From NCBI GenBank assembly GCA_016180805.1, contig JACPAM010000124.1, forward strand, positions 1 to 37,214: a stretch of DNA of 37,214 nt, in the 5' to 3' direction. Positions 1-24,508 of this stretch are shown here, piece after piece; positions within the stretch are counted from its first letter, which is position 1; the number at the start of each line of letters is the position of its first letter. The notes under the pieces are model-generated. The model made no database searches and had not been told where the DNA came from. It saw only the letters and a list, made by a program, of their open reading frames with translations. This DNA is from Deltaproteobacteria bacterium. GTDB taxonomy: Bacteria; Desulfobacterota; Binatia; UBA9968. The position numbers and the translations under genes are program-made.

Positions 1-1018
1 CAAGCGTCTTTCTCGGCGCTTCGGTCAACTTTCCCGTCTTCAGGTCCCAGAAGTAGAAAATGTCCTCCCGGCCGCCAGCCTTGATATCCTTCTCGCGCAA
101 AAACTTGCCCGTCGACTCCACCACCAAAAGCGGCAGATCGGTCTGCTCCCGAACAAAGTCTTCCCTGTAGAGATTCTCCCGCATGATCACCTGACAGATC
201 GAGAGGGCCAAAGCCGCATCGCTGCCGATATTCACCGGCACCCAAAGATCGGCATGAATGGCCGAAGGGCTGTAGTCAGGCGCAATCGTGACCACCTTCG
301 TGCCGTTGTAGCGGGCCTCAGCGACGAAGTGAAAGTTCGGGATGTTGGTGTAGGCGGGATTTCCACCCCAAATCAAAATCATGTTCGAGTAAAACCAGTT
401 GTCGGCGGAGTCCGCAATGATCACCTTCCCCATCGTGACGGCCACCCCTTGATGGTCATCCCCGTTATCGGCGGTCACATTGGAAAGAGGCGCCCCGAGG
501 GTCATAAAAAAGGTCGTAGGACCCGCCCCTTCACTACCCGCGTTCATCACCCGCGTCCCCCCCGCCTGAACGATGGCGTCCGGGCCCTCCTTCGTAGCGG
601 TATCGATAATGGCATCGGCAACTTCGGTCAGCGCCTCGTCCCAACTGATGCGCTTCCACTTCCCTTCGCCTCGCTCGCCGACCCGCTTCATGGGATATTT
701 GATCCGGGTCGGATCATAGACCCGGTGGGTGTAGCAAGCGCCCTTCTGGCAGCCCCTCGGGTTGAAATCGGGGACCGAGGGATCGTTGCGCGCGGGATAG
801 TTGCCCGCCTGCTCCTCTCGCACTACGATGCCGTCTTTGACGTAGAGATTGAAGTTGCAAGCCTGCTGGTATGCGCAGTTGGTCAGGTGGGAGCTTTTCA
901 CCACTTTGTCCCACTCCCAGGGAGCGCGCCGGATCTCCTCACGCGAATAATCACGACCGCGGAGAAGGCCGCCATCGCCCAGCTCCAGGCTTTCTAACTT
1001 CAACTCGAGATCAGCCAT
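1..1018 (-). CDS. Type II DMSO-reductase-family molybdopterin oxidoreductase alpha subunit (alpha1), 3' truncated by window edge
   Basis: Reverse-strand reading from ATG at 1018 gives MADLELKLESLELGDGG...HLTNCAYQQACNFNLYVKDG...RGCQKGACY...DSADNWF...IWGGNPAYTNIPNFHF, collinear with the five full-length paralogs in the window. Not in the ORF track because no stop lies inside the window. Confidence 0.93.
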   Translation of the reverse strand, partial: MADLELKLESLELGDGGLLRGRDYSREEIRRAPWEWDKVVKSSHLTNCAYQQACNFNLYVKDGIVVREEQAGNYPARNDPSVPDFNPRGCQKGACYTHRVYDPTRIKYPMKRVGERGEGKWKRISWDEALTEVADAIIDTATKEGPDAIVQAGGTRVMNAGSEGAGPTTFFMTLGAPLSNVTADNGDDHQGVAVTMGKVIIADSADNWFYSNMILIWGGNPAYTNIPNFHFVAEARYNGTKVVTIAPDYSPSAIHADLWVPVNIGSDAALALSICQVIMRENLYREDFVREQTDLPLLVVESTGKFLREKDIKAGGREDIFYFWDLKTGKLTEAPRKTL

Positions 1019-1038
1019 TGTTTGCGTCCAAACTTTAG

Positions 1039-1204
1039 GGGCTTCGCGGCTCCCTTCGCTCCACGGCCTCCCGCATTGACCCTTCCGCGACTTGCTTGCA
1101 CAAGCTCCCTCGGGGACCGCGCTCTCGGCTGCGGCCGATGGGTTCGTACCATGAGTCGTACCGTCTGTAATCGGACGTCCGCAGCCTCGCTCGCGCTCCC
1201 CTCG
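1039..1204 (-). repeat. Bipartite dispersed intergenic repeat, copy A
   Basis: Reverse complement matches 27168..27390: 28/28 nt identical in one arm, about 99/104 nt in the other, with an unrelated insert (1143..1176) between the arms. Confidence 0.85.
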
Positions 1205-1233
1205 CTCGCGGATAAGCAGGTCCGTGGCCTTTC

Positions 1234-2715
1234 TCAACCATTCGCTCCCCCGCTGCCAAACAGTTTGCCCCACTTCGCTTCGATTTCCCGAATGCGCTCC
1301 GCGCTGGATCGGATGGAAGGGGGAAACCTGTCCTTCCACGCAAACGGCCTGCACGCCAGGATGATGGCTGAGGAGTGCGTGAAATCGGAGCGCTCCCGCT
1401 TGTCGGGCGGGAGCCGGGGATCAATGGGGCTGCCCCAGCAACCGTCTACAACTTGCACAGACTCCCGAGGATCACAGCGCGTGTTCAGGGCCCAGGAAAC
1501 CTGGAGCCAATCCGTCGGATCGATATCGTCGTCGACCACGATGATCCACCGCAGCATATAAGCCGTGCTGTAGGAGCCCAGGACTTTCAAAGCAGCGTGC
1601 AGCGCCTGGCCGCCCCAGGTCTGCTGTAACGCGATGATGAGCCCGCCGTAAGGCGTGCCACCCTCCATAGACCAGACGCCTCGGACTCCCGGAATCTCGC
1701 GGTCCAAGAGATCCCATACGACAGCCGAGCGGCGAATGTGACGCCCCAGGGCATAGTCCACAGTCGTGAGCAGAGGAGGGGAGCCCTGAAGTATCGGACT
1801 GTTTCGGTGCAGAACCGCGTGAATCCTGACCGGAGGTTGAGGCTTCGACGGGTGGTAATAGCCGGTCCACTCGCCGAAGGGTCCTTCGGGCAGGTCCGGC
1901 TCCCGCCCGGGCGGCAAGAACTCCCCTTCGAGCACGATCTCGGCACGCGCCGGAATCGGAAGTCCGCTGTGGGGACCCCTGACGACTTCTACCGGCCGTC
2001 CCCGAAGACCTCCGGCATAATCGTACTCCGACATTCCCCACGGCACCGGAAAGTTGGACGCGGCCCACAGCAGCGGATCCTGGCCGCAGCAGATGGCCAC
2101 GGGACAGCTTTCACCCCTGGCCCAATATTTTTTCCGAATCAAGTCCGTGTGACGACCGGGAGAGAGGTAGACGGTGGCGGTGTTTCGGTTCTGGACCTGC
2201 ACGCGCTCGGTGCCCAGGTTTACCCAACCCTCGTCGGGATCCCGAGTGATAATCATGCAGGCGGTGCCGATGTAGCGTCCGCCATCTTTTTCATGCCAGC
2301 GCGGGGCGGGAAAAAGATTGAGATCCACCTTTTCCCCCTTCACGACGTTCTCGAGCACGGGCCCCGAACCAACCTCATCCGGCGGGCGGGGAGCGAGACT
2401 GCGCTCCCGATCGCGCCAGAGCTTCACGTGTTCGAGCTTGGAAGCATCCAGCGGTAGTCCCAACGCGGCCGCCGCCCGCCTGTGCGTGGTGAAGAGATTC
2501 GTGGCAACCCGAAAACCTTTAGGATAGCCGGGTATGGCATCGAACAAGAGGGCGGGGGAATCAGGCAACAGAGCTTGCCATTCGCTGATCAGACCGATTT
2601 CCGTTTCCCAGTTAGCCCCGTCGACTTTCCTCAAATCTTTCTGGTCTTCGAGGTAGCGCAGGAAAGCCCGCAGGTCGTTAAACGTGAGGCTTTCCGTTGG
2701 CAGCTCCCTGTTCAT
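1234..2715 (-). CDS. UbiD-family (prenyl-FMN-dependent) decarboxylase/carboxylase
   Basis: 493 aa; FNDLRAFLRYLE...N-terminus, MIITRDPDEGWVNLGTERVQV, CGQDPLLWAAS, EGPFGEWTGYY, typical of UbiD family. Confidence 0.92.
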   Translation of the reverse strand: MNRELPTESLTFNDLRAFLRYLEDQKDLRKVDGANWETEIGLISEWQALLPDSPALLFDAIPGYPKGFRVATNLFTTHRRAAAALGLPLDASKLEHVKLWRDRERSLAPRPPDEVGSGPVLENVVKGEKVDLNLFPAPRWHEKDGGRYIGTACMIITRDPDEGWVNLGTERVQVQNRNTATVYLSPGRHTDLIRKKYWARGESCPVAICCGQDPLLWAASNFPVPWGMSEYDYAGGLRGRPVEVVRGPHSGLPIPARAEIVLEGEFLPPGREPDLPEGPFGEWTGYYHPSKPQPPVRIHAVLHRNSPILQGSPPLLTTVDYALGRHIRRSAVVWDLLDREIPGVRGVWSMEGGTPYGGLIIALQQTWGGQALHAALKVLGSYSTAYMLRWIIVVDDDIDPTDWLQVSWALNTRCDPRESVQVVDGCWGSPIDPRLPPDKRERSDFTHSSAIILACRPFAWKDRFPPSIRSSAERIREIEAKWGKLFGSGGANG

Positions 2716-2747
2716 GGTTCGACTCCGCTCACCATAACCGCTCTCTT

Positions 2748-5570
2748 CTACGCCGCTTGCGCGCGCCTTTCAGCCCTCCTGATCTCGACACGGGTGTCGC
2801 GGTCGTTTTGACCGGGCATGCAGATCAAAGGATCGGGTCGGATATGCCCATAGTCTCCAACCAGCTCGATGGGGTTCATGGGGGAGACCATCACGCTCTT
2901 GAAGTGGCGCCAGCCATCGAACTGGTAGTTTTCCCATGCGTGGTAAATGATCACCTGGCCGGGTCGGGCCGCCGCCGAGACAACCGCCTGAGCCCGGAAA
3001 GAGGCCGCGTCATTGAAGACCTCGATGTCGTCACCGTCCACGATTCCCCTCGAAGCGGCATCGCGCGAATTCACGAACAGGACCGGCTCTCCCCGCTGCA
3101 GGCCGAGAATCAAAGCGTCGTCAACCCAGTCGCTGTGGATGCTCCAGCGCGCATGGCCGCCGGTCACCTGCAGCGGATAATCTCCGCCCGCTTTCGGACA
3201 GTCCTTGTGCGTCGGTAGATGCTCTTCGAGCTCGAAATACCAGTCGTGGTCGATGTAAAACTGAATACGCCGGGTGAGCGTTGGATAGGGCTGCTTTTTT
3301 TTCGTGTGCCAGGTGAGAGGCACCAGGGGCTCGCCCACCTCCATGTCGCAGGCATTGCCGATGGAGCGCATCGCCGTCCCAAGGCCCGTGTAGGCGGCGA
3401 AACCTCTTTCCCTGACTTCCTCCCACCCGATCTGCTCCACGTTGCCGGTGTTGAGGAAGGCGTCCCGGGCCACCCCCTCCTCGTCATCCTCCGCGTAAAG
3501 CCCCCCGCATGTCACGCTCTCGGGAAGCCTATCGAACCTTCTCTCTTTGCCGTCCTTGTCCCGGTAAGCCCCCAGGCCCCGTGCCCGCGCCCGCTCGGCG
3601 ATCTTCCGCGCAAGACGCACGAAGACCGTCCACTCGCTGAGCGACTCATATAGAGGCTCGCATGCCTTGTTGCTGACGTGCATGAAAGGCGACTGCGTGC
3701 ATGCCCACAGGTTGGTCGAGGTCCGCTCATACCAGCCGCAGGCAGGCAAAACGTAATCGGAGTAAAGACCGGTGGCGCTCACGCGCCAGTCCACCGTAAC
3801 CACGAGCTTGAGCTTCGGCAGCAGCGTCTGGATGAGTCGATTCGTGGCTCGGGCTCGGCGGAAGACATTCCCGCCAACCTGAAAGAGGACCCGGGGCTCC
3901 TTTTCGACCGGGCGGACCAGAAACTGCCATCGCTTCGCCAGGGCTTCTTTGACATAGTCGCCAACGGGGCGCTTCAGATGCGGGTCCCAACTGTTATGCC
4001 GCTCGCTCAACTCCAGGAGCCCGCCGTGGAACAAGTGCTCCATGCACGTCGCCGAGATCCCGCCGGAGGCGACGATCTGCTTGCCATACTCGTAAAGGAT
4101 CATCTCGGTGGTGTAGCCGTCTTCCTTCCAAGCCGAATAGCGGGGGTCGCTCGAAGCAGCCGAAAGAAGCATCTGGTGCCCGCGGCGCTCCAGGGCGCCA
4201 AGCGCGGTATCGGGGTGCAGCGCCGGGAAGGCGCTAAACGACGCTCCTTTTCTTCCCATGTGGCCGCACAGGGCAAACACCAAGAGAATCGCCCGCTCGA
4301 TCAGATCGCCGTGGTAGAATTTCCCCCAGTTGCCCGCCGACACGTTGACCACGCCGCGGGCTGTGGCGATCTCGCGCGCCAGCTTTTCGATCAGGGATGG
4401 CGGGACCCCGGTAATCGCCGCCGCTTTCTCGGGCGTGAACCCGCGATCGAGGTGTTCGCGCAGAAGCTCGAAGACGGGGCGCGCCTTGATCTCTCCGGAT
4501 AGCGTGCGAACCTCATACTCTCCTTCAAGGGCTGGAGCCTTGCCATCGAGGGTCAGGCTTTTGCGCGGCGCCTCCACCACCTGCCCGCAGCTCTCATCAT
4601 AAAAATAAAAAACATCCTCTCTGCCGCCGGGTTTCAGATCTTTCTCGCGCAAGAGCCTGCCGTTATCCGATCGAACTAAAAGCGGAAGATCGGTTTGCTC
4701 CCGCACAAACTCCTCACGGTAGAGCTTTTTCTCAACGATGACCTGGGCCACTCCCAATGCCAGCGCGGCATCGGTCCCGACATTTATCGGCACCCAGAGA
4801 TCGGCATGGATCGCCGAGGGGCTGTAGTCCGGCGCGATGGTGATGAGGCGCGCGCCGTTGTAGCGGGCTTCGGCGAGGTAGTGAAAATTGGGGATGTTGG
4901 TGTAAGCCGGGTTTGCGCCCCACGTCAGGATGAGATCCGCGTGAAACCAGTTGTCGGCCGAGTCAGCGAAGATGATCTTGCCCAGGGTGATCGCCACCCC
5001 CTGATGGTCGTCGCCGATTTCGGCATTTACGCTCGGATGAGGCGAACCGAGGGCCTCGAAGAAGGCATTGGGGGCCATCCCCTCGCTGCCCTGGCTATGG
5101 ACCCGAGTCCCGCCTCCCTGAATGACGACCTCAGGACCGTCCGTCGTGAGCACATCGATCAGGGGATCGGCAATCTCGGTCAAGGCTTGATCCCAGCTCA
5201 CCCGCTGCCACCGTCCCTGCCCGCGCTCTCCCACCCGCTTCAGCGGATATTTGATCCGCGTGGGATCATACATCCTGTGGACGTAGCAGACACCCTTCTG
5301 GCAGCCGCGCGGGTTCGGATCGGGAACCGAAGCATCGTTCGGCGCAGGATAGTTCCCGACCTGCTCCTCGCGCAGGACGACGCCGTCCTTGACGTAAAGA
5401 TTGAAGTTGCAGGCCCGCTGGTACCAGCAGTTGGTTGGATGGGAAGACTTCACCACCCGATCCCATTCCCATGAGCTCTTCTGTAGCTCGCCGGAGGAAA
5501 AGGTGAAGGTATCGCTTCGGGGGTCACCCTTCACCTCCAAGCCTCCCAGCTCTAGCCTTAACGGAATCAT
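2748..5570 (-). CDS. Type II DMSO-reductase-family alpha subunit (alpha2)
   Basis: 940 aa; HPTNCWYQRAC...RGCQKG FS0-type motif, DSADNWF (aligned with the NarG/EbdA Mo-ligand Asp), C-terminal SDRxTRVE-like end (NDRDTRVEIRR). Confidence 0.92.
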   Translation of the reverse strand: MIPLRLELGGLEVKGDPRSDTFTFSSGELQKSSWEWDRVVKSSHPTNCWYQRACNFNLYVKDGVVLREEQVGNYPAPNDASVPDPNPRGCQKGVCYVHRMYDPTRIKYPLKRVGERGQGRWQRVSWDQALTEIADPLIDVLTTDGPEVVIQGGGTRVHSQGSEGMAPNAFFEALGSPHPSVNAEIGDDHQGVAITLGKIIFADSADNWFHADLILTWGANPAYTNIPNFHYLAEARYNGARLITIAPDYSPSAIHADLWVPINVGTDAALALGVAQVIVEKKLYREEFVREQTDLPLLVRSDNGRLLREKDLKPGGREDVFYFYDESCGQVVEAPRKSLTLDGKAPALEGEYEVRTLSGEIKARPVFELLREHLDRGFTPEKAAAITGVPPSLIEKLAREIATARGVVNVSAGNWGKFYHGDLIERAILLVFALCGHMGRKGASFSAFPALHPDTALGALERRGHQMLLSAASSDPRYSAWKEDGYTTEMILYEYGKQIVASGGISATCMEHLFHGGLLELSERHNSWDPHLKRPVGDYVKEALAKRWQFLVRPVEKEPRVLFQVGGNVFRRARATNRLIQTLLPKLKLVVTVDWRVSATGLYSDYVLPACGWYERTSTNLWACTQSPFMHVSNKACEPLYESLSEWTVFVRLARKIAERARARGLGAYRDKDGKERRFDRLPESVTCGGLYAEDDEEGVARDAFLNTGNVEQIGWEEVRERGFAAYTGLGTAMRSIGNACDMEVGEPLVPLTWHTKKKQPYPTLTRRIQFYIDHDWYFELEEHLPTHKDCPKAGGDYPLQVTGGHARWSIHSDWVDDALILGLQRGEPVLFVNSRDAASRGIVDGDDIEVFNDAASFRAQAVVSAAARPGQVIIYHAWENYQFDGWRHFKSVMVSPMNPIELVGDYGHIRPDPLICMPGQNDRDTRVEIRRAERRAQAA

Positions 5571-5589
5571 TTTCCTTTAGTTTCAGCTT

Positions 5590-5640
5590 CACCCTCACCC
5601 TACCCTCTCCCTTGGAGGGAGAGGATCAAAGGTGAGGGTG
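5590..5640. repeat. Intergenic nested palindrome (REP-like)
   Basis: CACCCTCACC (5590-5599) pairs with GGTGAGGGTG (5631-5640); inner CCTCTCCC (5604-5611) pairs with GGGAGAGG (5617-5624). Confidence 0.75.
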
Positions 5641-5677
5641 TAAAAATTCCAAATATCTTTGGTTAGGATCTACTTTC

Positions 5678-6760
5678 TCAACGCCCCAAGACCCATTTCA
5701 TTCGTTCAACCACTTCTTGAGGTTGCGCAATCAGTTCTTTTGCCAGCGACGCCAGCTCTTCCCCGTCGAGGAGTTTGACTTCCCATCCTCTTTTCTTGGC
5801 TTCGGCTCGAAGCTCCGGATCGCCCACGGCTCTGGCGAAGGCGTCGCGGAGGGTCCTAACGATCTCCGCGGGAACTCCGGGCGGAGCTAGAATGGGGCGG
5901 CCGAGCATGGGAGCGGAGACAACCACCCGGGCAAGCCGCCGGCCGGATTCGGGCGTCTTGTACCGCTCCATCAGCTCATAAATCGTCGGGACTTCCGGCA
6001 GTCTCGGATCCCGTTTTCTGCCGGTTTGAAGCAGCACGCGCACGAAACCCTCTTTGTGCCAGCTCCTGTATGGCTCACGGCCGAAGTACGTGGCTACGAG
6101 CGGTGACCAGCACAGGACTTCGCCCCTAAGGACACCGAGGTCGATCTCCGGCCCGCCCGGATAACCGCTGACAATTTTGATCTTAATACCAAGGGTCTCC
6201 TCGAGTAGCCTGGGGATATAATGGCCGGTAGTAGTTGTTCCCGAACTGCCGCACTTGGGAGGTTCCTTAGCTGCGCGAAGGTCGTCCGCTGTGCGGTAGG
6301 GCGAGTCCGAACGGATATAAAATAAGATCTCATTTTGCTCCGGCGAGCCGATCCATGTGAACTTCGCCCAATCGAACTGAACCTCTTTTCGTCCGATGAG
6401 CTGCTCAAAGTAGAGCGCCGGATTGACAGCGCCGAGAGTCAGCCCGTCCGGTTTCGCAATTCCATAGACATAGTTTGCCGCGACCAGCGAGCCTGCCCCT
6501 GGCATATTCTGGGAAATGATGTCGGGATTTCCCGGGATATGCTTGCCTAAATAGCGGGCGACAACGCGCGCCCACAGGTCATAGCCTCCTCCGGCGGTGG
6601 TTCCGATAAGAAGCCTGATGGACTTTGCTTTGTAGAAAGGCTCCTGCGCAAAAGCGGCTGGATCAAGGGACAAAGGGATGAAGAGATAAAGGGAGAGCGC
6701 AATCAGCCCATTGATCCCTCTAGCGCGTAAACTCTGTAACCCTTTTGGGGTCATGGGCAA
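5678..6760 (-). CDS. Tripartite tricarboxylate transporter substrate-binding protein (TctC/Bug family)
   Basis: 360 aa; hydrophobic signal peptide ending AFAQE, then IRLLIGTTAGGGYDLWARVVARYLGKHIPGNPDIISQNMPGAGSLVAANYVY. Confidence 0.88.
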   Translation of the reverse strand: MPMTPKGLQSLRARGINGLIALSLYLFIPLSLDPAAFAQEPFYKAKSIRLLIGTTAGGGYDLWARVVARYLGKHIPGNPDIISQNMPGAGSLVAANYVYGIAKPDGLTLGAVNPALYFEQLIGRKEVQFDWAKFTWIGSPEQNEILFYIRSDSPYRTADDLRAAKEPPKCGSSGTTTTGHYIPRLLEETLGIKIKIVSGYPGGPEIDLGVLRGEVLCWSPLVATYFGREPYRSWHKEGFVRVLLQTGRKRDPRLPEVPTIYELMERYKTPESGRRLARVVVSAPMLGRPILAPPGVPAEIVRTLRDAFARAVGDPELRAEAKKRGWEVKLLDGEELASLAKELIAQPQEVVERMKWVLGR

Positions 6761-6769
6761 ACCCCTTTC

Positions 6770-9340
6770 CTACACTGGCTCGGCTTGAGCCACGTAGCGC
6801 TCCGCCTCGACCAAGTTAGTGACCGCGGGAGCTGTGACAGGGCTTTCCATATCGGTAAAGAAAATATTCGGCGTGCACCCCCAGTCCACCCCGTCTTTGT
6901 CGGGCTCGTAATTGCCGCCGTGGTGAATCACGACCATCCCGGGTAGAATCCGAGAAGTGACGTAGGCCGGAAGAACTCCCACTCCCTTGTCGTTATGAAT
7001 CCTGACTAAATCCCCATCCTTAATTCCCCTGGCTTGGGCGTCCGCTGCATTCATCCAGATGGCATGGCGATAGCAATCGCCACGCAACCAGGGAATGTTC
7101 CAAAAGGTGGTGTGATTGCGATACCTCGGATAACAGCTCAAAAGCATCAACGGGAAACGCTTCACGTCCGCATGGTCCATGCCTCGGTATATGGGCTGAT
7201 AAGCTGCGAAAGGAGCCAGGTCCCGCCAGTCATTAGGGAGGTTATCAATAAGCTGGCCGTGATCATCGAAGTGAAGCTTCCCTCGCTGCGACTCGTCGCC
7301 AACGATATGGCTATAAAGCTCAATCTTGCCGCTCCGAGTCTTCAGCGGCTTTCCCCCCTCGATAAAACTCTTGTACCCGTGCCAGGGCTCGTCATACGCC
7401 TCATCCACATTGATCAAACAGTCCTTGGTGAATTTCCTCCACTGAGGAGCTTTGACTCCTTGCTTGCGCAGCGCCTTCGCGCAGCTCCGGTACTCATCTC
7501 TGAGGTAACGCTCCCAGCTCTCGTCCCAGTTGCCCCGCTTGTAGTAGCGGTTGTACTGCTCGCCGATGCCCAGCCGGCGCGCCAGCTCAGAGTAGACCCA
7601 GTCGTCTGGCCTCGCCTCTCCCTGTGGCGGAACAACGCCGGGGAGGAATGTGTAATTCGCGAAGCCTCCATAGCCCGCAGTTTGAATTGTCCGTTGTTCC
7701 AGCGTCATCTCAGTCAGAGGAAAGATCACATCGGCATGACGGGCCATCGAAGCCATCTGGGTACCCGCCCACACAACAAACTCAAGCTTCTCGAGCGCCT
7801 TAAGCTGATCATTTGTGGAATCGACGTTGTTGTTGAGCGTGTTCGTACCCGGACCGTAGTATGTTCCCCAAAGCATCATCTTAGGATTGGGCAGGGTCTC
7901 TTCTGTGGCGGTCCCGTTGTCTTCAATGGTGTCTTCGATGGCGCCTCCTGCCGTTCCCCCGGCCCAAACCCTTGACAAAGGCCGCTTGGGAAGCGGACCT
8001 GTACGCCATCCGATCTTTCGCTTGTATTCCTCAACGCTCATCTCGCCGGAGCGAACCTTATCCTGAAGCAGTACCATCTGGGCCCACTTGTGGCTGCGAT
8101 ACATCTTCGGAATCATTCGCCTCGGAATATCTCCGTATGGCATGAGCACGCTGGGCTTGTCGCGAAAACGCAAATGAAGGGGCACGGAACCTCCTGCCAC
8201 ACCCCAATAGCCCATAATGGCCTGGAGACTAGCCGCCCCACGAGCCGTGTTTTCCCCCCGGCTCTTTCTGTCCAGTCCGTAGCCTTTCCACAGCCAGGTA
8301 GGCTTCATCCGCGCATAGAGGCGAGCAAACTCCCGGATCGTCTCTGCTGGAACCGTGCAGATCTTCTCCGCCCATTCGGGTGTCTTCTCGATACCATCAG
8401 TCTCGCCAAAAATATAGGCGCGCCACTTCTCGAAGCCGCCCTGATCGACGTACTTCGCCACGAACTCCTTGTTGTATAGGTTCTCTCTGATGAGCACGTT
8501 GGCCACGGCCAGCATCATGGCCGCATCCGTCCCGGGCTTGATGGGAATCCACTGATCCGCCAGAACCTCCGCAGCGACCGTGTACCGACAGTCGATACAA
8601 ATGACAGGCGTGCCTCTCTCTCTAGCCATCTTGATGTAGTAGGCCAACTGGTGCCCGGGTCCGAAGTGTGTGATCGTCGGCTCAAACCCCCAAAGGACGA
8701 TCATTTTGGTATTCATCAGGAAATCGGCCATGTCGTTGGAGCCTTCACCGTAGGACCAACCCGGCACGCCCGCCATGAGGTGCATGGCAAGCCGCCCGGG
8801 ATCCATGGAGCACCATCCCCATCCCTCGATTCCCGCACCCCACAGACCAAATAGCCGCTCAAGCCGAGCATTGGGCGCATACGGAGTAAAGACCGAGTAA
8901 GGCCCGTAGCGCTCCGCCACCTCTTTCATCTTGTTGGCCACAAGGTCGAGAGCCTCGTTCCAGGTAATGCGCTCGAATTTTCCCTCTCCCCTCTTGGTCC
9001 CTTCCACCCGCTTCATGGGGTAGAGGATGCGCTCAGGCGAAGTGGCGAGCTTGTGGAACATCCATCCCATAGGGCAGCCCCGGAGCTGAAGCCGGTTTTT
9101 GATCAGGTCGAGATCGGAGACAACCGCGTCCTCCCGCCCGACGCCGCGGTTGTAATGATCGTCGGGCTCAATAGCGGTGACCTTGCCGTTGCGCCTGCGG
9201 ACCTTGAGCACGCACTGGCTGCCGCCGCAGTTGATCCGACACCCGGTGTAGAGAACTTCCTCGTCGGCGTGAAGGTTTTTGAGCTTTCTGACGATACCGT
9301 CGCGCCGCGTCCTTACCCCAACTCTGTTTCTCGATGGCAT
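6770..9340 (-). CDS. Molybdopterin-dependent oxidoreductase, DmsA-like, divergent from the alpha array
   Basis: 856 aa; GCRINCGGSQC...LRGCPMGW Fe-S motif, ITWNEALDLVANKM, WIPIKPGTDAAMMLAVANVLI, C-terminal DPR-type molydopterin-binding domain (WMNAADAQARGIKDGDLVRIHNDKG). Confidence 0.88.
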   Translation of the reverse strand: MPSRNRVGVRTRRDGIVRKLKNLHADEEVLYTGCRINCGGSQCVLKVRRRNGKVTAIEPDDHYNRGVGREDAVVSDLDLIKNRLQLRGCPMGWMFHKLATSPERILYPMKRVEGTKRGEGKFERITWNEALDLVANKMKEVAERYGPYSVFTPYAPNARLERLFGLWGAGIEGWGWCSMDPGRLAMHLMAGVPGWSYGEGSNDMADFLMNTKMIVLWGFEPTITHFGPGHQLAYYIKMARERGTPVICIDCRYTVAAEVLADQWIPIKPGTDAAMMLAVANVLIRENLYNKEFVAKYVDQGGFEKWRAYIFGETDGIEKTPEWAEKICTVPAETIREFARLYARMKPTWLWKGYGLDRKSRGENTARGAASLQAIMGYWGVAGGSVPLHLRFRDKPSVLMPYGDIPRRMIPKMYRSHKWAQMVLLQDKVRSGEMSVEEYKRKIGWRTGPLPKRPLSRVWAGGTAGGAIEDTIEDNGTATEETLPNPKMMLWGTYYGPGTNTLNNNVDSTNDQLKALEKLEFVVWAGTQMASMARHADVIFPLTEMTLEQRTIQTAGYGGFANYTFLPGVVPPQGEARPDDWVYSELARRLGIGEQYNRYYKRGNWDESWERYLRDEYRSCAKALRKQGVKAPQWRKFTKDCLINVDEAYDEPWHGYKSFIEGGKPLKTRSGKIELYSHIVGDESQRGKLHFDDHGQLIDNLPNDWRDLAPFAAYQPIYRGMDHADVKRFPLMLLSCYPRYRNHTTFWNIPWLRGDCYRHAIWMNAADAQARGIKDGDLVRIHNDKGVGVLPAYVTSRILPGMVVIHHGGNYEPDKDGVDWGCTPNIFFTDMESPVTAPAVTNLVEAERYVAQAEPV

Positions 9341-9408
9341 AGACAGCTCAAGCCTCCTTCAAAGTGCGATGGTTCAAGTCGTTTAAGACGGTGCTGAACA
9401 AGAGTTTT

Positions 9409-9610: not shown

Positions 9611-9802
9611 TTACGCCCGCCAATCATCCGGGAGCTTACTGTAGTTGGGGCCCTTTCCCGGCGCGTACTTTTCAGGCTCGTGCCGAAAAGTGTTTCGGCA
9701 GTCTACCGAACAAAAATAAAAGCGCGCCCCCCAGAATTGCACCTTGCCGCCTGGAGCGCTTTTTTCGTCCACTTCTTTCTTGCATACAGGATCGGTAGCC
9801 AT
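9611..9802 (-). CDS. YHS-domain metal-binding small protein
   Basis: 63 aa; MATDPVCKKEVDEKSAPGGKVQFWGARFYFCSVDCRNTFRHEPEKYAP. Confidence 0.85.
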   Translation of the reverse strand: MATDPVCKKEVDEKSAPGGKVQFWGARFYFCSVDCRNTFRHEPEKYAPGKGPNYSKLPDDWRA

Positions 9803-12773: not shown

Positions 12774-13856
12774 TTACGAGGGCCTCGCCAACGGCGCTTT
12801 GAAACTTCCGGTCGTAAATTTCTTGAGCATTCGGTCGATGCTTTCTCCGTAGCGCGTCGGGTAACCGCTGAAGGAGGCCGAGCGCTCCAGCCACTTTTCG
12901 CAGTGCGTGCAGCCTGAGCAGCCCAGGCGGCAGTCTTTTCTCCGGAAAAACTCCAGAAAACCTTCGAGCCGTTTGTTGTCCAGGATGACCGGAAACTCAC
13001 CGAACGGATCGATGCCGTCCAGCCCGATGACAAGATCGTTGAGATTGCCGGAATAACTGCGCGCCGAGTACGCGGCCACCGCCCGCACAACCCACTCGCC
13101 TCCTTTTTCTCTCCCGGCCAGCTTGAACTCACGAAAGCCCAACTCCTCGTAGACCGCGAGATCCTCGGGCCGAATCCACGGCGCCTTGATCAATTCGACG
13201 GGACTGGTCGCCTTGAGCTGGGCGCATTTCGCCAGCGAGTAATCCAGGTAGCAGCCATGACGGAAGCTTTCCGAGGCATGACTGATGAAGTTGGCGTGAT
13301 AGTCCCTGAGCGGGCAATGGACGAGACAGCCCAGATTGACAATGGGCACAAGTTCGCAACTGAGCCTTTTCCTGAGCGCCCTGAGGAGCTTGAAATCGCG
13401 GTTCAGGTACTCGGGGAGGTAAATCGCGTCAACGCCAAGGCGGTCGTAAAAGAGCGCCTGATCGAGCGTATCGACGCGCACAAGGCTCGACAGGCTCACG
13501 CTGAGCTCGGGGTAGCGGCGCTTGACCATCTCGATCACGTAAGGGTTGGTCGCCACGACCCCCTCCGCCCCGGCATCCGTCAACCAGCCCAGCCGCTCCG
13601 CCAGCCACTTCTGTCCCTCGGCGGTGAACTCGCGATTGGTGCTGCACGAAGCGTTCAGCGTGTAGACGAAGCCGATTCCGCGCCCGCGGCACTCGGCGAT
13701 ATGCTCCGCTAACTCGTCTTCTTTGACGGCCGGTAGCCACTTCATCGCCCGGGCTCCCGGCTCTTCCACGAGGGAGCCATAGACCCGAGCCACCGGGTAA
13801 GCGGCCAAGGCTTCCATGAAGGCCGGCTCAAAAGTCGTGGGAACGATGAGCTTCAT
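12774..13856 (-). CDS. Peptidase U32 family / UbiU-UbiV-like protein
   Basis: 360 aa; NLGCLVHCPLRDYHANFISHAS...HGCYLDYSLAKC (U32-type four-Cys arrangement) plus C-terminal CRLGCSGCTHC. Start overlaps the alpha4 stop (ATGA). Confidence 0.82.
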   Translation of the reverse strand: MKLIVPTTFEPAFMEALAAYPVARVYGSLVEEPGARAMKWLPAVKEDELAEHIAECRGRGIGFVYTLNASCSTNREFTAEGQKWLAERLGWLTDAGAEGVVATNPYVIEMVKRRYPELSVSLSSLVRVDTLDQALFYDRLGVDAIYLPEYLNRDFKLLRALRKRLSCELVPIVNLGCLVHCPLRDYHANFISHASESFRHGCYLDYSLAKCAQLKATSPVELIKAPWIRPEDLAVYEELGFREFKLAGREKGGEWVVRAVAAYSARSYSGNLNDLVIGLDGIDPFGEFPVILDNKRLEGFLEFFRRKDCRLGCSGCTHCEKWLERSASFSGYPTRYGESIDRMLKKFTTGSFKAPLARPS

Positions 13857-16588: not shown

Positions 16589-16639
16589 GGAGCGATGCGG
16601 ACTGAGGTCCGAGTCGGCTCAGCCCCCGTTACTCGCTCC

Positions 16640-19375
16640 TCAGTCCTGCCCGGCCCTTCTCAGCTCCACCCGCGTCTCGCGGTCGCTGTAACCCGGATAG
16701 AAAGTGTCCGAGGTGGGCTGCACATGATAATAACCGCCGGCGAGCTCCAACGGGTTTAGCGGAGAAGCCATCACGTTCTTAAAGTGGCGCCATCCCCTGA
16801 ACTGGTGGTTCTCCCAAGCGTGGTACATAACGACTTGTCCCGGCTTCAGCGCGGGCGACACTCCCGCCAAAGCCTGAAACGAGGAAACGTCGTTGTACGC
16901 TTCCACCCGGTCGCCGTCCTGAATTTGTCGTGCCTCGGCGTCTTCCCCCGACACAAAGATCAAAGGCTCGCCTCTTTGCAGCCGGAGAAGAAGGGTGTCA
17001 TCGACCTGGTTCGAATGGACGCTCCAGCGTGCATGCCCGCCGGTAAGCCTGAGCGGATAATCCCCGCCCGCTTTGGGGTCTTCTTTCTCGACCGGCAATG
17101 CTTCGCCGAATTCGAGATACCAGTCGTGGTCGATGTAAAATTGCATCCGCCGCGTCTGTGTGGGATAGGGCTCTTTTTTGTTGATGTGCCAGGTCAAGGG
17201 AACCACGGGCTCGCCCGGTGTGATGTCGCACGCGTTGCCGATGCTGCGCGCGTTTAACCCCAGGGCGGTCAGGGCTACCAGACCTTTCTCCTTCGCCTCC
17301 TCCCACGGCATTTGCTCGACGTTCGCCGTGTTCACGTAGAAGTCCCGGGTGACGGCCTCCTCATCCTCTTCGGTATACATCCCGTTAGTGGTGACCCGGT
17401 CGTACAGATCATCCAGGCGACGCGTGGTGCCGTCAGGATGGGGGATAGTCTGAATGCCCCGGGCCTTGGCTCGCTCCTGGATCTTTTTGGCCAAGAGGCA
17501 GGCAATCTCCCACTCGTTTTTGCTTTCCCCAAGGGGATCGATCGCCTTATCGATCACGAAGCCGTAGGGGTAGTCGGTCTTCTGCGGCCCGTAGAAACTG
17601 AACTTCTCGTACCAACCCGCCGCCGGAAGCACGTAGTCGGAGTACAACGCCGTGGCCGTCCAGCGCGGATCTATCGTGACGATGAGCTTGAGCTTCGGAA
17701 GGAGCGTTTTCAGGATCGTCTCGGTGGCGCGGGCCCGCCTGAGCATGCTGCCGCCGTAATGGATGAGAGAGCGCGGCTCCTTGCCCGGCCTCGGCCAGAC
17801 CTTGTGCCAGCCTTTCTCCAGAGACTCCTTCACGTACTCCGCCACCGGGCGCTTCAGCGTGGGATCCCAGCTGTTGTGTTTTTGGCTCAACTCTAGCAGC
17901 CCGCCGTGGAAATAAGTGAAGAGCGTGCCCGAGACGATCCGCTCTTTGGCCATCGCTTCCTGGGCATACTCCAATATGATCATCCCGTCGGTGTATCCCT
18001 GAGATTTCCACTGCGCATACCGGGGATCGGAGGCGGCCGCGGCTCGAAGCAGAATCCATCCCGCAACCATGCCGCCAGGGGCTAAGGTATCGGCGGCCCC
18101 TCCGGTGAAGCCGTGATAAACGGCTCCCCTCCTTCCCATGTGACCGCAGAGCGCAAAGACCAAGATGATCGCCCGCTCAATCTCGTCGCCATGGTAGAAC
18201 TTGCCCCAATTAAATGTCGTCACGTTTGTGACCGCGCCGGCCCGGGCGATCTGCCGGGCCAGGTCTCGGATTACCGCAGGCGCGGTACCGGTAACGGTCG
18301 CGGCCTTTTCCGGCTGGTAGTCTTGGAGATGAGCCTTCAGGACTTCAAAGACCGGTTTGACTTCCACAGTCCCGGCGGTTGTCGCGACGCGATAGCTTCC
18401 CTCCAAGGCCGGGACCATATCGCCTAAAGCGAGGGTCTGCCGCGACGCCTCCTTGAGCTGGTTCGCGCTCTGGTCCCAGAAATAGTGGAGGTTATCCCGA
18501 CCGCCCCGTTTCAGGTCAGCTTCCGTGAGAAACTTCCGCGTGTCGGTCCGAACCAGGAGGGGAAGGTCGGTCTGCTCGCGCAGGAAGTCTTCTTTGTAGA
18601 GCCGCTCTTCGACGATGACCTGAGCCATGGCGAGCGCCAGCGCGGCGTCCGTTCCGATGTTCACGGGCACCCACTGATCGGCGTGGATAGCCGAGGGGCT
18701 ATAGTCCGGCGCGATGCAAACGATGCGCGTCCCGTTATAGCGCGCCTCCGTCAAGAGGTGAAAATTGGAGATGTTGGTATAGGCGGGATTTCCGCCCCAT
18801 ATGAGGACCACATCCGCGTACCACCAGTTGTCAACCGAGCCGCCCACGTACGGTTGCCCGAACACCTGGGCCACCCCTTGGTGCTCATCACCCAGGTCCG
18901 CCATGATACTGGTGAACGGAATGCCCAAGACGCTCATCAGGCCCTCGATCCCGACCGATTCGCTGCCCAGGGTTCCGCTGCCGGTAACACGCAGGATGGT
19001 GTCGAGCCCGTCGGTGGTGAATATGTCGATCAGCTTATCTGAAATCTCCTCTAACGCCTGATCCCAAGAGATCCTCTGCCATTTGCCTTCTCCGCGCTCT
19101 CCCACGCGCTTGGACGGATACCGGGTCCGGGTCGCGTCGTAGGAGCGCGCCGCCATCACCAGCCCTTTCTGGCAACCCCGCGGCTCCCAGTCCGGGACAT
19201 CCGGGTCATTGGGATGAGGATGGGTATTGCTTTGCTCTACACGAACGAGCGTGCCATCCTTGACATAGGCATTGAGGATGCACGGTTTCTGGTAGGAACA
19301 GTTGTTGTGGCAGGTGACCTTGACTACACGGTCCCAGCTTAGTCCGCCGTTGGCTTTCGCTTGTTCACCGATCAT
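16640..19375 (-). CDS. Type II DMSO-reductase-family alpha subunit (alpha5), Cys in place of FS0 His
   Basis: 911 aa; VVKVTCHNNCSYQKPC...RGCQKG; GGSVDNWWYADVVLIWGGNPAYTN. Confidence 0.92.
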   Translation of the reverse strand: MIGEQAKANGGLSWDRVVKVTCHNNCSYQKPCILNAYVKDGTLVRVEQSNTHPHPNDPDVPDWEPRGCQKGLVMAARSYDATRTRYPSKRVGERGEGKWQRISWDQALEEISDKLIDIFTTDGLDTILRVTGSGTLGSESVGIEGLMSVLGIPFTSIMADLGDEHQGVAQVFGQPYVGGSVDNWWYADVVLIWGGNPAYTNISNFHLLTEARYNGTRIVCIAPDYSPSAIHADQWVPVNIGTDAALALAMAQVIVEERLYKEDFLREQTDLPLLVRTDTRKFLTEADLKRGGRDNLHYFWDQSANQLKEASRQTLALGDMVPALEGSYRVATTAGTVEVKPVFEVLKAHLQDYQPEKAATVTGTAPAVIRDLARQIARAGAVTNVTTFNWGKFYHGDEIERAIILVFALCGHMGRRGAVYHGFTGGAADTLAPGGMVAGWILLRAAAASDPRYAQWKSQGYTDGMIILEYAQEAMAKERIVSGTLFTYFHGGLLELSQKHNSWDPTLKRPVAEYVKESLEKGWHKVWPRPGKEPRSLIHYGGSMLRRARATETILKTLLPKLKLIVTIDPRWTATALYSDYVLPAAGWYEKFSFYGPQKTDYPYGFVIDKAIDPLGESKNEWEIACLLAKKIQERAKARGIQTIPHPDGTTRRLDDLYDRVTTNGMYTEEDEEAVTRDFYVNTANVEQMPWEEAKEKGLVALTALGLNARSIGNACDITPGEPVVPLTWHINKKEPYPTQTRRMQFYIDHDWYLEFGEALPVEKEDPKAGGDYPLRLTGGHARWSVHSNQVDDTLLLRLQRGEPLIFVSGEDAEARQIQDGDRVEAYNDVSSFQALAGVSPALKPGQVVMYHAWENHQFRGWRHFKNVMASPLNPLELAGGYYHVQPTSDTFYPGYSDRETRVELRRAGQD

Positions 19376-19455
19376 GGGTGGCCTCCCAATAGTTGGTCAG
19401 GAAGGGAAAGGGGTCGGGAGTCTTTCGGTCAGGACTCCCTTGACGGAGGAGCCTC

Positions 19456-22161
19456 CTACGCTCCCACTTTTCGCACCTCCACGCGCGTCCCTCGGTCGCT
19501 GAAGCCCGGGTAGTTGCTCATCGTGATCGGACGAATCTGGAAGTAATCCCCGGCCAGTTCGATGGGGTTCATCGGGGATGCCATCACGCTCTTAAAGTGG
19601 CGCCAGCCGTCGAACTGGTAGTTCTCCCAGGCGTGGTACATGATCACTTGCCCGGTCTTGACCGAAGGCGAAACCGTCGCGTGCACCTTAAATGAGGCAA
19701 CGTCGTTCAAAACTTCAACGACCTCCCCGTCGCGCACTCCTCTGGACTCGGCATCTCGCGCGCTCATGAACATCACCGGCTCGCCCCGCTGGAGTTGGAG
19801 GAGGAGCGACTCGTCGACTTGGTCGCTGTGAATGCTCCAGCGCGCATGCCCGCCGGTGATCATCAACGGATAATCACCTCCCGCCTTGGGAGGGTCCTTG
19901 TGGACCGGCAGGTCTTCCCCGAGCTCGCGAAACAGATCGTGGTCGATCAAGAACTGAATGCGCCGGGTGAGCGTGGGATAGGGATCCTTCCTTTCGGTAT
20001 GCCAGGTGAGCGGCACCACGGGTTCTCCGGGAACGATGTCGCAGGTATTCCCAATCGAGCGCATGCCGGTGCCAACGCCGGTATAGTGGGCGATCCCGCG
20101 CTCCTTAAAGTCCTCCCAGTCGATCTCCTCGACATTGGAGGCGTTCAAGAATGCATCGCGGGCGATCCCCTCTTCGTCGTCCTCATTGTAAAGCCCGCCG
20201 AAGGTCACTTTGTCCTCCAGCCCGGCGAAGCGATGCTCGACACCATTGGCATCCGTATAACTCTCCACCCCCCGCTCCCGCGCTCGCTCCTCGACCTTGC
20301 GCGCAAGCAAGCAGAACATCTTCCACTCGCCGAGCGAATCGTAGAGCGGCTCGGTCGCCTGATTGACGACATGCACGAAGGGCTGCACCGGCATGCCCAT
20401 GAGGAAAGTGGAGGTCTTCTCGTACCAGCTGCACGCGGGAAGCACGAGGTCCGCGTAAAGCGCCGAGGCATTCCACCGCCAATCGACCGAGACCAAAAGG
20501 CGGAGCTTGGGCAAAAAGTTCTCGAGCAGGACATTCGTGCAGCGGGCACGGCGCAGGAAATTGCCGCCGAGGGCAAACATGACTCTGGGCGCCTTCTCCG
20601 GCCCCGGGGCGAGAAACTGCCATTTCTTCTCGAAGGCTTCGCGGACGTATTCTTTGATGGGCCGCTTGAGATAGGGATCCCACTCCGGGTGCTTGGCGCA
20701 AAGGTCCAGGATCCCGCCATGGAGGTAGTACATGAGCGAAGTCGGCGTGATCCCCCCCGAGGCAAAAGCTTGGTGCACGTACTCGTAGAGGATCATCTCG
20801 TCCGTAAAGCCCTCTTCACGCCACTGGGCAAAACGCGGATCTCCCCCCGCGGCGGAAAGGATGATCTGATCGCCGCGCTTCTCGAGGCCTCCCAACGAAG
20901 TGTCCAGGCCCATCATGGGAAAGGCACTGAAGGTGGCGCCCTTTCGCCCCATGTGGCCGCACAGAGCGAAGACGAGCAGGATGGCGCGCTCGATAAGATC
21001 ACCGTGATAATGCTTTCCCCAGTTCGCCGTGCTGATATTGACCACGCCCTCGGCGGTGGCGATCTCTCGCGCCAGCCTCTCGATCATCGAAGCGGGAACG
21101 CCTGTGATCTTGCTTGCCTGCTCCGGGGTGTAGTGCTGATCCAGGTGACGGCGGAGTTGCTCCATGACCGGTTTTACGACGACGCTGCCTTGCGGGGTCT
21201 GGACCTGGTACCGGCCGCCAGCCTTGATATCCTTCTCGCGCAGAAACTTGCCGGTGGACTCGACGACCAAAAGCGGCAGGTCCATCTGCTCCCGGACAAA
21301 ATCCGCCTTGAAGAGCTTTTCTCGCAGGATCACCTGGCACATCGCCAACGCCAGCGCAGCGTCGCTGCCGATGTTCACGGGCACCCACAGATCGGCGTGG
21401 ACCGCTGAGGGGCTATAGTCGGGAGAGATCGTGACGACCTTGGTCCCGTTGTAGCGAGCCTCAGCGATGAAGTGGAAGTTGGGGATATTCGTGTAGGCCG
21501 GGTTGCCGCCCCAGATGAGGATCATGTTGGCGTGGAACCAGTTGTCCGCCGAATCCCCGACGATCACCTTCCCCAGCGTGATCGCGACCCCCTGGTGATC
21601 GTCACCATTGTCCGCGGTCACATTGGACAGCGGCGCCCCCACGCCGATAAAAAAGGCGGTCGGGCCGGTCCCCTCGCTGCCGAGGTTCATGACGCGGGTA
21701 CCGCCAGATTGCACGACGGCCTCGGGTCCCTCTTTAACGCACGTGTCGATAATGGCATCGGCAACGTCGGTCAGGGCTTCATCCCAACTGACGCGCTTCC
21801 ATTTTCCCTCGCCGCGCTTGCCGACCCGTTTCATCGGGTACTTGATCCGTGTGGGATCGTACATTCGGTGGACGTAGCAGGCGCCTTTTTGGCAGCCCCG
21901 CGGGTTGAAATCGGGGACGAGCGGGTCGTTCAGCCGCGGGTAATTGGCCGCTTGCTCCTCTCGCAAAACCACGCCGTCTTTGACGTAAACGTTGAAGTTG
22001 CAAGCCGTTTGGTACCAGCAGTTGGTCAGATGCGAGCCTTTGACGATCCGATCCCACTCCAACGGTTTCTGACGCATTTCGCTGAGGGAGAACTGCGCGC
22101 CGTCCTCCCCGTCTCGCTCGCCGATCTCCAAGCCCCCTAACTCGAGCCTGATGTCAGCCAT
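19456..22161 (-). CDS. Type II DMSO-reductase-family alpha subunit (alpha6)
   Basis: 901 aa; HLTNCWYQTAC...RGCQKGACY; DSADNWFHANMILIWGGNPAYTN; lacks an internal segment of about 35 aa present in the other full-length paralogs. Confidence 0.93.
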   Translation of the reverse strand: MADIRLELGGLEIGERDGEDGAQFSLSEMRQKPLEWDRIVKGSHLTNCWYQTACNFNVYVKDGVVLREEQAANYPRLNDPLVPDFNPRGCQKGACYVHRMYDPTRIKYPMKRVGKRGEGKWKRVSWDEALTDVADAIIDTCVKEGPEAVVQSGGTRVMNLGSEGTGPTAFFIGVGAPLSNVTADNGDDHQGVAITLGKVIVGDSADNWFHANMILIWGGNPAYTNIPNFHFIAEARYNGTKVVTISPDYSPSAVHADLWVPVNIGSDAALALAMCQVILREKLFKADFVREQMDLPLLVVESTGKFLREKDIKAGGRYQVQTPQGSVVVKPVMEQLRRHLDQHYTPEQASKITGVPASMIERLAREIATAEGVVNISTANWGKHYHGDLIERAILLVFALCGHMGRKGATFSAFPMMGLDTSLGGLEKRGDQIILSAAGGDPRFAQWREEGFTDEMILYEYVHQAFASGGITPTSLMYYLHGGILDLCAKHPEWDPYLKRPIKEYVREAFEKKWQFLAPGPEKAPRVMFALGGNFLRRARCTNVLLENFLPKLRLLVSVDWRWNASALYADLVLPACSWYEKTSTFLMGMPVQPFVHVVNQATEPLYDSLGEWKMFCLLARKVEERARERGVESYTDANGVEHRFAGLEDKVTFGGLYNEDDEEGIARDAFLNASNVEEIDWEDFKERGIAHYTGVGTGMRSIGNTCDIVPGEPVVPLTWHTERKDPYPTLTRRIQFLIDHDLFRELGEDLPVHKDPPKAGGDYPLMITGGHARWSIHSDQVDESLLLQLQRGEPVMFMSARDAESRGVRDGEVVEVLNDVASFKVHATVSPSVKTGQVIMYHAWENYQFDGWRHFKSVMASPMNPIELAGDYFQIRPITMSNYPGFSDRGTRVEVRKVGA

Positions 22162-22176
22162 CTCTTCCCCCTTCCT

Positions 22177-22824
22177 TTATGCCGGCTGAACGTGGGAAAG
22201 CTCGCGCTGGCAAAACGCCGCCGCCAGGCTAGCCAAATCCGCATAGAAAGGGACGCCGCTAGCGCCCACTTTCGACGCCACCGTTGCGAGGAAGTCGCTC
22301 AGGTGGAAGCGCAGAAAATCGCGCTGTGCGCTGAGGTATGCGCGGCGCTCGTTGCCCTGAAGCAGAGCCTCTGCCTCGCGGAAGGTCAGAACGTGCATGA
22401 ACTCCAGCTCGGAGGCCAGATGATCGGGCCGATCGCGTTTTTCCTGAGAGAGGCGAAGCCCAAAGTGGTGATAGAAGCGCAAGACCTCCTCCATCACTTT
22501 CATTCGCCCGCCGCCGTACTCCGCTTCGTAGAGAAAGCAGGGAGCACCCAATTCGCCGCCCACCTCGAACAGTTGGATATAGCGGCCCTGGAATTCGTCG
22601 AAGCTCAGAGCGGTTCCGCGCCCGAGCTCGCCGCCCTTCAAGCCGTCATAGGGAAGATGCGCGAGGGCCTCAGCGACTGCGTCGGCGAACCGGCCCGTCT
22701 TCACGCTTTCGAACTGCTCGGGTGCCGGAAAGCGGAACCCCTTGGAAATAAGCGAGTACAGCGCGCTGCGGGAACCGATGTGCTCCTGTTCGGGTCCGTT
22801 GAGTTCCAATCGATCCGTTTTCAT
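22177..22824 (-). CDS. TorD/DmsD/NarJ-like molybdoenzyme maturation chaperone
   Basis: Acidic helical protein with LFEVGGELGAPCFLYEAEYGGGRMKVMEEVLRFYHHFGL and RPDHLASELEFMHVLTFREAEAL. Start placed at 22824 because ATGA overlaps the beta stop; the ORF track extends to 22878. Confidence 0.88.
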   Translation of the reverse strand: MKTDRLELNGPEQEHIGSRSALYSLISKGFRFPAPEQFESVKTGRFADAVAEALAHLPYDGLKGGELGRGTALSFDEFQGRYIQLFEVGGELGAPCFLYEAEYGGGRMKVMEEVLRFYHHFGLRLSQEKRDRPDHLASELEFMHVLTFREAEALLQGNERRAYLSAQRDFLRFHLSDFLATVASKVGASGVPFYADLASLAAAFCQRELSHVQPA

Positions 22825-23855
22825 GACGTGGTCACCTCGCTGGGATCTTTGGGGAAGGGTCCCAGAAGCTCTTGCCACCTGCGAGCAATGAGCGTGTCAA
22901 TAATTTCAGATTCCTCTTTCTTCCTCTTCCTCTCGATTTCCTCCTCCAACCGCCTTAGAACATCGTCCACTTCGGGACCGAATAGAGACCTCAGATAATC
23001 CAAGGGGATCCGTGGCTTGCTTTCGTCCACATTGCCATCAGTGTTGAGGCGCGGCGGAGCCAGTGGTGGCACGTAGAAAACGTTTGGGTATGTGCCGAAC
23101 TCCGCATGCAGTGGCAGCGCCACCTTCCATTGTTTTACTAACTTGTGAACGGGCCCCTCAGCGTCGTCTAAAAACCCGACCCACACACAGCGTCCTGGGC
23201 ATTGCCTCACGCATGCGGGGGCGACCTCCTGCTCCATCCTGGGCAGGCAGCCGTTGCACTTTTGCGCCACGTGTCTAATCGGATTCATGAATATCTCTTT
23301 GTACGGACAACCTTGCATACACTTCGGCTCGGGGCAGGTTACACACTTCGCCTCGTCCAACACCAAGACGACCCCATCCTCCTCCCTCTTATGAATGGCA
23401 TCATAAGGGCAGGCATCCGCACAGGCCGGCTGGCCGCAGTGGTTACAGAGGCGCGGCAGGTAGAAGAAGTAGGCATTGGGATAGTCGCCGCTGGCAATAT
23501 CCTCATCCCAATTGGGCCCCCACCCGGGACTCTCCCGCGGCGCCAGATGGACGGCATTCCCCTTCCCGCCGAAGAACACTTCCTCGTAGTTAAAGTCCAT
23601 GGGCTTGCCGTAATCCTCCGCCGTGGCCGCCCTCCCCAGTCGGAGCTTTCCGTCCCCATCGTAACCTCCACCCATCTGCTCCCAATCCTTCGGGTACCCG
23701 CGACCCGGCATGGTGTTCACCTTCATCCACCACATGTGGTCCATCCCCTTGTCGTTCGTCCACAAGGTCTTGCACGCGATCGTGCAGGTGTGGCATCCCA
23801 TGCACTTGTTGAGATCGACTACGAATGCGATTTGCCTCTTGCCGTTACTGGGCAT
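22821..23855 (-). CDS. Type II DMSO-reductase-family Fe-S electron-transfer beta subunit (NarH/EbdB/SerB-like)
   Basis: 344 aa; QIAFVVDLNKCMGCHTCTIACKTLWT, CNHCGQPACADACPYDAIHKREEDGVV, CVTCPEPKCMQGCPYKEIF, CNGCLPRMEQEVAPACVRQCPGRC, YPNVFYVPPLAPPRL. Confidence 0.93.
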   Translation of the reverse strand: MPSNGKRQIAFVVDLNKCMGCHTCTIACKTLWTNDKGMDHMWWMKVNTMPGRGYPKDWEQMGGGYDGDGKLRLGRAATAEDYGKPMDFNYEEVFFGGKGNAVHLAPRESPGWGPNWDEDIASGDYPNAYFFYLPRLCNHCGQPACADACPYDAIHKREEDGVVLVLDEAKCVTCPEPKCMQGCPYKEIFMNPIRHVAQKCNGCLPRMEQEVAPACVRQCPGRCVWVGFLDDAEGPVHKLVKQWKVALPLHAEFGTYPNVFYVPPLAPPRLNTDGNVDESKPRIPLDYLRSLFGPEVDDVLRRLEEEIERKRKKEESEIIDTLIARRWQELLGPFPKDPSEVTTS

Positions 23856-24504: not shown

Positions 24505-24508
24505 CCGT

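Follow-up and report, generated by a model that had tools for sequence, protein, structure and literature searches.

In this study, we show that the minus strand of the window, by which we mean the whole 37,214-nucleotide stretch of DNA that was analyzed, encodes six catalytic α subunits of the type II DMSO reductase family together with a single β subunit and a single chaperone. Profile matches bore out the predicted gene order, which spans positions 1–23,855. With moderate confidence, we read the array as a variant of the type II (EbDH/S25DH-like) enzymes that is cytoplasmic and lacks γ, and in which one β and one chaperone would serve several substrate-specific α subunits. Subfamily II includes enzymes for the oxygen-independent activation of hydrocarbons and steroids, and in its characterized hydroxylating members, EbDH and S25DH, electrons exit via a [3Fe-4S] cluster and heme b. 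If our reading is true, a cytoplasmic branch with a rebuilt electron exit would show how the redox direction of type II enzymes can be retuned, and six α subunits with one β would offer a natural set for asking whether α subunits are interchangeable and what the FS0 ligand does.

Gene content and operon structure

The host is an uncultured groundwater bacterium, represented by a MAG of 4.46 Mb in 339 contigs that is 91% complete, and the window is its entire contig C71. The features discussed below are as follows.

22821..23855, minus strand: β subunit, EbdB/NarH-like, 344 aa, 16 cluster Cys (TIGR03478, 461 bits; PDB 4ydd_B and 2ivf_B, E ~1e-114)
23307..23345, minus strand: β motif C171-x2-C174-x4-C179-x3-C183, with C174 as the extra ligand (Trp in NarH; no Cys in EbdB or PcrB)
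22177..22824, minus strand: TorD/EbdD-type assembly chaperone (TIGR03482, 137 bits; its ATG overlaps the β stop, 4 bp)
19456..22161, minus strand: α6, 901 aa (TIGR03479)
16640..19375, minus strand: α5, 911 aa (Cys in place of the FS0 His ligand, codon 19310-19312)
13853..16588, minus strand: α4, 911 aa (Cys in place of the FS0 His ligand, codon 16514-16516)
12774..13856, minus strand: U32 protein (PF01136; 4 bp overlap with α4)
9929..12733, minus strand: α3, 934 aa (TIGR03479, 899 bits)
9611..9802, minus strand: YHS-domain small protein (PF04945, 44 bits)
6770..9340, minus strand: DmsA-like molybdoenzyme (TIGR02166, 442 bits, under cut-off; no Tat signal seen)
5678..6760, minus strand: TctC-type solute-binding protein (PF03401)
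2748..5570, minus strand: α2, 940 aa (TIGR03479, 891 bits; 2IVF EbdA, E 6e-195)
1234..2715, minus strand: UbiD-family (de)carboxylase (over the cut-off for the general UbiD subfamily TIGR00148)
1..1018, minus strand: α1, N-terminal ~339 aa, truncated by the contig end (very probably continuing at C187:1787-3541)
24211..24504, plus strand: MoaD-like small protein, opening the divergent operon (TIGR01687, 30 bits, under cut-off; 46-53% identical in five relatives)
24476..27085, plus strand: PhsA/PsrA-like MopB protein, divergent operon (no Tat signal seen; synteny in 5 other family genomes)
27326..28015, plus strand: DsrO-like 4Fe-4S protein, divergent operon (NF045797, 205.5 bits, cut-off 200)
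28133..29023, plus strand: NrfD-type membrane anchor, divergent operon (PF03916, 51 bits)

Five of the α genes are complete and α1 is cut by the contig end. TIGR03479, TIGR03478 and TIGR03482 were the top-matching families for the α subunits, β and chaperone in every case (TIGR03479 scored 818-899 bits with α2 to α6 and 424 bits with the α1 fragment), despite scores below the curated NCBIfam cut-offs (best α 899 vs 984.75 bits, β 461 vs 480.7, chaperone 137 vs 152.3). The identities first given to the UbiD, TctC, DmsA-like and U32 genes were confirmed by Pfam and NCBIfam, and that of the YHS protein by Pfam. The reading frame listed for α1 had to be corrected: the true start is at ~1018, and ~112 aa at the beginning of the frame are not part of α.

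The successive gaps from β through the chaperone, α6, α5, α4 and U32 to α3 are -4, 15, 80, 51, -4 and 40 bp, and given this spacing these seven genes, with β and four of the α subunits, are probably one operon. Several α genes had been described as near-contiguous, as α6, α5, α4 and α3 are (gaps of at most 80 bp). α2 and α1 lie beyond a 588-bp gap between α3 and dmsA, which contains the YHS gene, and a further gap of ~220 bp separates UbiD from α1; their membership of the operon is therefore less certain, and they may be transcribed separately. Scans for promoters and terminators gave no excess over shuffles.

The 3.5-kb contig C187 opens with an α fragment that is 83% identical to α6; behind it lie a YHS-like ORF, an FeS protein gene and another DmsA-like gene. 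G001 and G002, genomes of the same genus, have these FeS and DmsA-like genes behind an α1-type gene, and from this matching gene order α1 very probably continues on C187. The DmsB-like FeS gene after α1 (L058, C187:~576-1342) appears frameshifted, and the matching frame is continuous in G002. Moreover, α6 lacks ~36 aa that are present in all orthologs, and the first 99 bp of C187 are identical to α6 exactly at the site of this gap. Because the gap coincides with a 99-bp exact repeat common to the C187 start, we suspect that it is an assembly artifact.

Loss of the export signal and γ, and a fourth cysteine in β

Periplasmic αβγ enzymes had been taken as the model for the array, and in this respect the original prediction does not hold: no α carries a Tat signal, no γ lies by β, and the set of iron-sulfur ligands in β is different. 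No twin-Arg motif was found at the α N-termini of the clade, while many sister-clade α subunits have a Tat signal; a regular-expression match on the C197 α was spurious, the true start lying downstream of the match by alignment. A γ gene beside β was found in none of the eight family genomes, as against 7/7 other class genomes tested (TIGR03477, 137–179 bits). In a wider locus set searched with a home-made γ profile, a neighboring γ was present in 51 of 80 three-Cys β loci vs 0 of 5 four-Cys β loci. Of the remaining 29 three-Cys loci, some stand at the edge of a contig and others truly lack γ; the loss of γ as a unique mark of the clade was ruled out, as γ-less β without the fourth Cys occur elsewhere. 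The only TIGR03477 match in the MAG (L062, C223:8101-9687) was rejected as the missing γ, since it is a fusion in which an EB_dh (γ-like) domain is joined to cytochrome c domains, next to a cytochrome bd-like gene. NarI was not found next to αβ, and PF02665 gave 24-37 bit matches on other contigs, mostly in frames of 600-700 aa.

In the window β there are 16 Cys, four of them at the FS4 motif, compared to the subfamily II expectation of 15 Cys for three [4Fe-4S] clusters and one [3Fe-4S] cluster. The motif reads C-x2-C-x4-C-x3-C vs C-x2-W-x2-C-x3-C in NarH, and EbdB and PcrB are also without the second Cys. From NarH Trp220 and DmsB Cys102, we take the position of the extra Cys to be the [3Fe-4S] site. 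When all 16 Cys positions were checked, the fourth Cys was present in 14 of 116 β subunits, all of them in one clade; a β search of viral contigs gave no relatives.

In the α subunits, the Mo-ligating Asp at EbdA 223 was found in 145/145 aligned sequences, the position of EbdA Lys450 is Lys in 142/145, and the remaining FS0 Cys are invariant. The FS0 set of one His and three Cys is present in α1, α2, α3 and α6, whereas α4 and α5 carry Cys for His. This replacement is notable in that the literature describes the FS0 His as apparently fully conserved in subfamily II (PMC8840923). It also occurs in the orthologs of α4 and α5 and in three Chloroflexi α subunits of a separate clade, and because of this occurrence in two separate clades it probably arose at least twice. 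Taken together, the sequences show that each α keeps the Mo Asp, the pocket Lys and a four-ligand FS0, and that β has the ligands for four predicted [4Fe-4S] clusters.

The S25DH1-4 and S26DH enzymes of Sterolibacterium denitrificans likewise have many paralogous α, fewer βγ and one chaperone (PMC6016249), but by description they are periplasmic αβγ enzymes with Tat on α and heme b in γ. The α subunits are 36-38% identical to EbdA of EbdABC (PDB 2IVF), with the Mo Asp223, Lys450 and FS0 Cys positions kept, and β matches with E 3.5e-114. However, EbDH has a three-Cys FS4 site, Tat and γ, in contrast to the C-x2-C-x4-C-x3-C motif and the lack of both Tat and γ in the window; EbdA has the FS0 His where α4 and α5 have Cys, and its His192 is not kept in the alphas inspected, as is also reported for S25DH. 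NarGHI shares a cytoplasmic αβ, a NarJ/TorD-type chaperone and type II membership, but its similarity is much lower, there is no NarI gene by the window β, and the NarH Trp site is Cys in the latter. PcrAB and ClrABDC also combine type II α/β with a chaperone (window β vs PcrB, E 3e-114), but ClrABDC is a single-copy operon with γ, and ClrA is 0.34-0.37 identical to the window α subunits. A limited literature search found no description of a Tat-less, γ-less branch with a four-Cys β. Although the sharing of an electron-transfer partner is already known, the Tat loss, γ loss and extra β ligand look like an undescribed cytoplasmic branch.

Proposed mechanism and direction of the reaction

Each α would be loaded with Mo-bisMGD, aided by the chaperone, and every α would dock on the same β, the set differing mainly in the substrate pocket. 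Electrons would move along Mo-FS0-FS1..FS4 to or from a partner other than the heme b/cytochrome c of EbDH, since the altered FS4 and the absence of heme b relative to EbDH call for a different electron partner. By conserved synteny, the best candidate for a link to the quinone pool is the divergent MoaD-MopB-FeS-NrfD operon. Hydrophobic or aromatic carbon compounds may be the substrates, with UbiD and U32 taking part in their conversion. We tentatively go further and suggest a subclass relocated to the cytoplasm through coupled loss of Tat and γ, in which the fourth Cys would turn the [3Fe-4S] exit cluster into [4Fe-4S] and interchangeable α subunits (two with an all-Cys FS0) would share one β, possibly at low potential or in the reductive direction.

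It is also possible, but in our view rather unlikely, that the enzymes work in the reductive direction, as dehydroxylases or another kind of reductase for instance, and not as water-dependent hydroxylases. In EbDH, FS4 (+70 mV) and heme b (+256 mV) are matched to hydrocarbon oxidation (PMC8840923), and both are altered or absent in the window enzymes; the predicted change from [3Fe-4S] to [4Fe-4S] would lower the exit potential and let low-potential donors feed α, and the cytoplasmic location is in line with this. However, a 4Fe cluster need not be low-potential, and the nearest outside relatives of the α subunits are Tat-bearing, γ-linked enzymes of the hydroxylase type by inferred function.

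Probable sharing of β among α subunits

That only one β exists for the six α subunits is correct within the window but not for the genome, as a profile search of the genome contigs found a second β–chaperone pair on C197, the β 69% and the chaperone 52% identical to their window counterparts, and a third, distant chaperone on C126. About four further α genes lie on C197, C299, C16 (frameshifted) and C185 (partial, at a contig edge). The α on C16 (L057, 3885-6585) is split by the frameshift and has an intact close relative on C51 of G002. The β/α genes of C61 were considered as a partner and left out of the tally, being a separate NarGH-like pair with 33% identity to the window β. The tally for the genome is therefore ~10 α to 2 β, with the proviso that, in view of the completeness of the MAG and its frameshifts, an additional β could be missing; a separate β per α was not found elsewhere in the genome.

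Similar ratios were found in the relatives (G002 7:1, G001 ~5:1, G015 6:1, G009 3:1, G006 2:1, G014 2:1 and G008 ~8:2, with split α genes merged by eye). A surplus of α is also present in other families of the class, for example in G043, at 15:4 with one β followed by four tandem α, and multi-α loci with a single β occur in Myxococcota- and Deltaproteobacteria-labelled, Chloroflexi and Acidimicrobiia MAGs. The excess of α is widespread and not specific to the window. In G043 and G069, both of the same class, there are ~15 and ~20 type II α with 4 and 5 β, respectively, and γ lies next to one β in each.

The proposal of a swappable-α system is upheld insofar as the genome has no β per α and the relatives have 2:1 to 7:1; it is not new, however, S25DH being a precedent, and the periplasmic αβγ model attached to it does not fit. 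We think it quite likely that the α subunits are swappable on a common β, though this is already published for another system: the sharing of βγ by several α subunits was proposed for Sterolibacterium S25DH in 2018, backed by recombinant α1, α2 and α3, each of which gave active complexes with the same β3γ3 (α1β3γ3, α2β3γ3 and α3β3γ3; PMC6016249).

A less inclusive arrangement, which we consider improbable, is that only the β-proximal α6 (perhaps with α5, α4 and α3 of the same operon) uses the window β, and that the partner of α1, α2 and the distant α subunits is either the C197 β or a small ferredoxin-like subunit of the kind encoded next to α1 on C187. The existence of a second four-Cys β on C197, the position of α2 and α1 beyond the 588-bp gap and the DmsB-like FeS protein that comes after α1 on C187 and in G001 and G002 agree with such an arrangement. 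On the other hand, relatives with a single detected β (G002, G009 and G015) still have 3-7 α, including those of the α1, α2 or α3 type, and the small FeS protein lies directly beside a DmsA-like gene, which is its more natural partner.

Origin and divergence of the α subunits

The pairing of the α subunits as 1/6, 2/3 and 4/5 proved to be real, with identities of 0.81, 0.74 and 0.72 vs 0.54-0.65 for other pairs, and the pairs are kept in the tree. In this phylogeny, anchored by EbdA and ClrA only, the α subunits of the family group in one clade with those of the single-α loci L100, L102 and L104 (fork support 100), and for most window α subunits the genus or family contains a dedicated ortholog. 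A β tree from which the cysteine-motif columns had been removed gave one clade with the same membership as the α clade, also with support 100. The loci L100, L102 and L104 have the order β–chaperone–α with one of each, and this 1:1:1 order suggests that the array grew from a β–chaperone–α operon through multiplication of α next to a β that stayed unchanged.

Each of the six α subunits had an ω of 0.08-0.13 against the nearest orthologs compared, which indicates purifying selection. The segments that vary most among paralogs yet are conserved among α6 orthologs map to EbdA 188–232, 484–564 and 658–687, and the paralogs diverge somewhat more near the pocket positions of EbDH than elsewhere (overall p ~0.03 in a circular-shift test, a modest effect that relies on the EbDH residue numbers used). 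These findings give modest support to paralogs acting on different substrates on a common scaffold. The view that the array is a decaying tandem-duplication relic with mostly non-functional α subunits, to which the α6 internal gap, the frameshifted α on C16 and the frameshifted FeS gene on C187 might point, is very improbable and already largely refuted by the low ω values, intact orthologs and retention of all cofactor ligands in the six α.

Conserved neighborhood and accessory genes

The order β–chaperone–α6–(α5–α4)–U32–(α3)–dmsA–(α2/α1)–FeS–dmsA2 recurs with gains and losses in eight family genomes, and the MoaD-like–MopB–FeS–NrfD operon diverges from β in five relatives, namely those with contigs long enough. 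The named relatives are MAGs, mostly from groundwater and labelled Deltaproteobacteria; going by the name JACPRU01, they presumably belong to the GTDB class Binatia. The MoaD-like gene (24211-24504, plus strand) was absent from the earlier gene list. A second MopB-FeS-NrfD set follows the first at 28981-33251 on the plus strand and was not seen in the relatives' loci examined.

With regard to the accessory genes, the closest NCBIfam equivalog of UbiD is phenylphosphate carboxylase β (282 bits, under cut-off), and the VdcC model is also near. The U32 protein has 10 invariant Cys, including C177/C181/C202/C211 and a C-terminal Cx3Cx2Cx2C, that are kept in seven genomes, and it is possible that it holds two clusters. 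It was rejected as UbiU/UbiV, whose oxidase cluster motif is CX6CX15CX3C (PMC11574389), because its spacing of C177-x3-C181-x20-C202-x8-C211 with a C-terminal CX3CX2CX2C differs and the NCBIfam match is 19.8 bits. UbiD, U32 and TctC point weakly to aromatic or other recalcitrant carbon.

Two further observations concern the window at large. A MITE-like dispersed repeat of ~165-230 bp with internal inverted symmetry has copies at 1039-1234, between UbiD and α1, and at 27163-27390, and genome-wide ~40 places were scored from 365 first-look candidates. An XdhB-like FAD-binding ORF (35437-36222) contains an exact 62-bp tandem duplication at 35652-35774, and its homology ends at about residue 92, consistent with a frameshift or assembly error.
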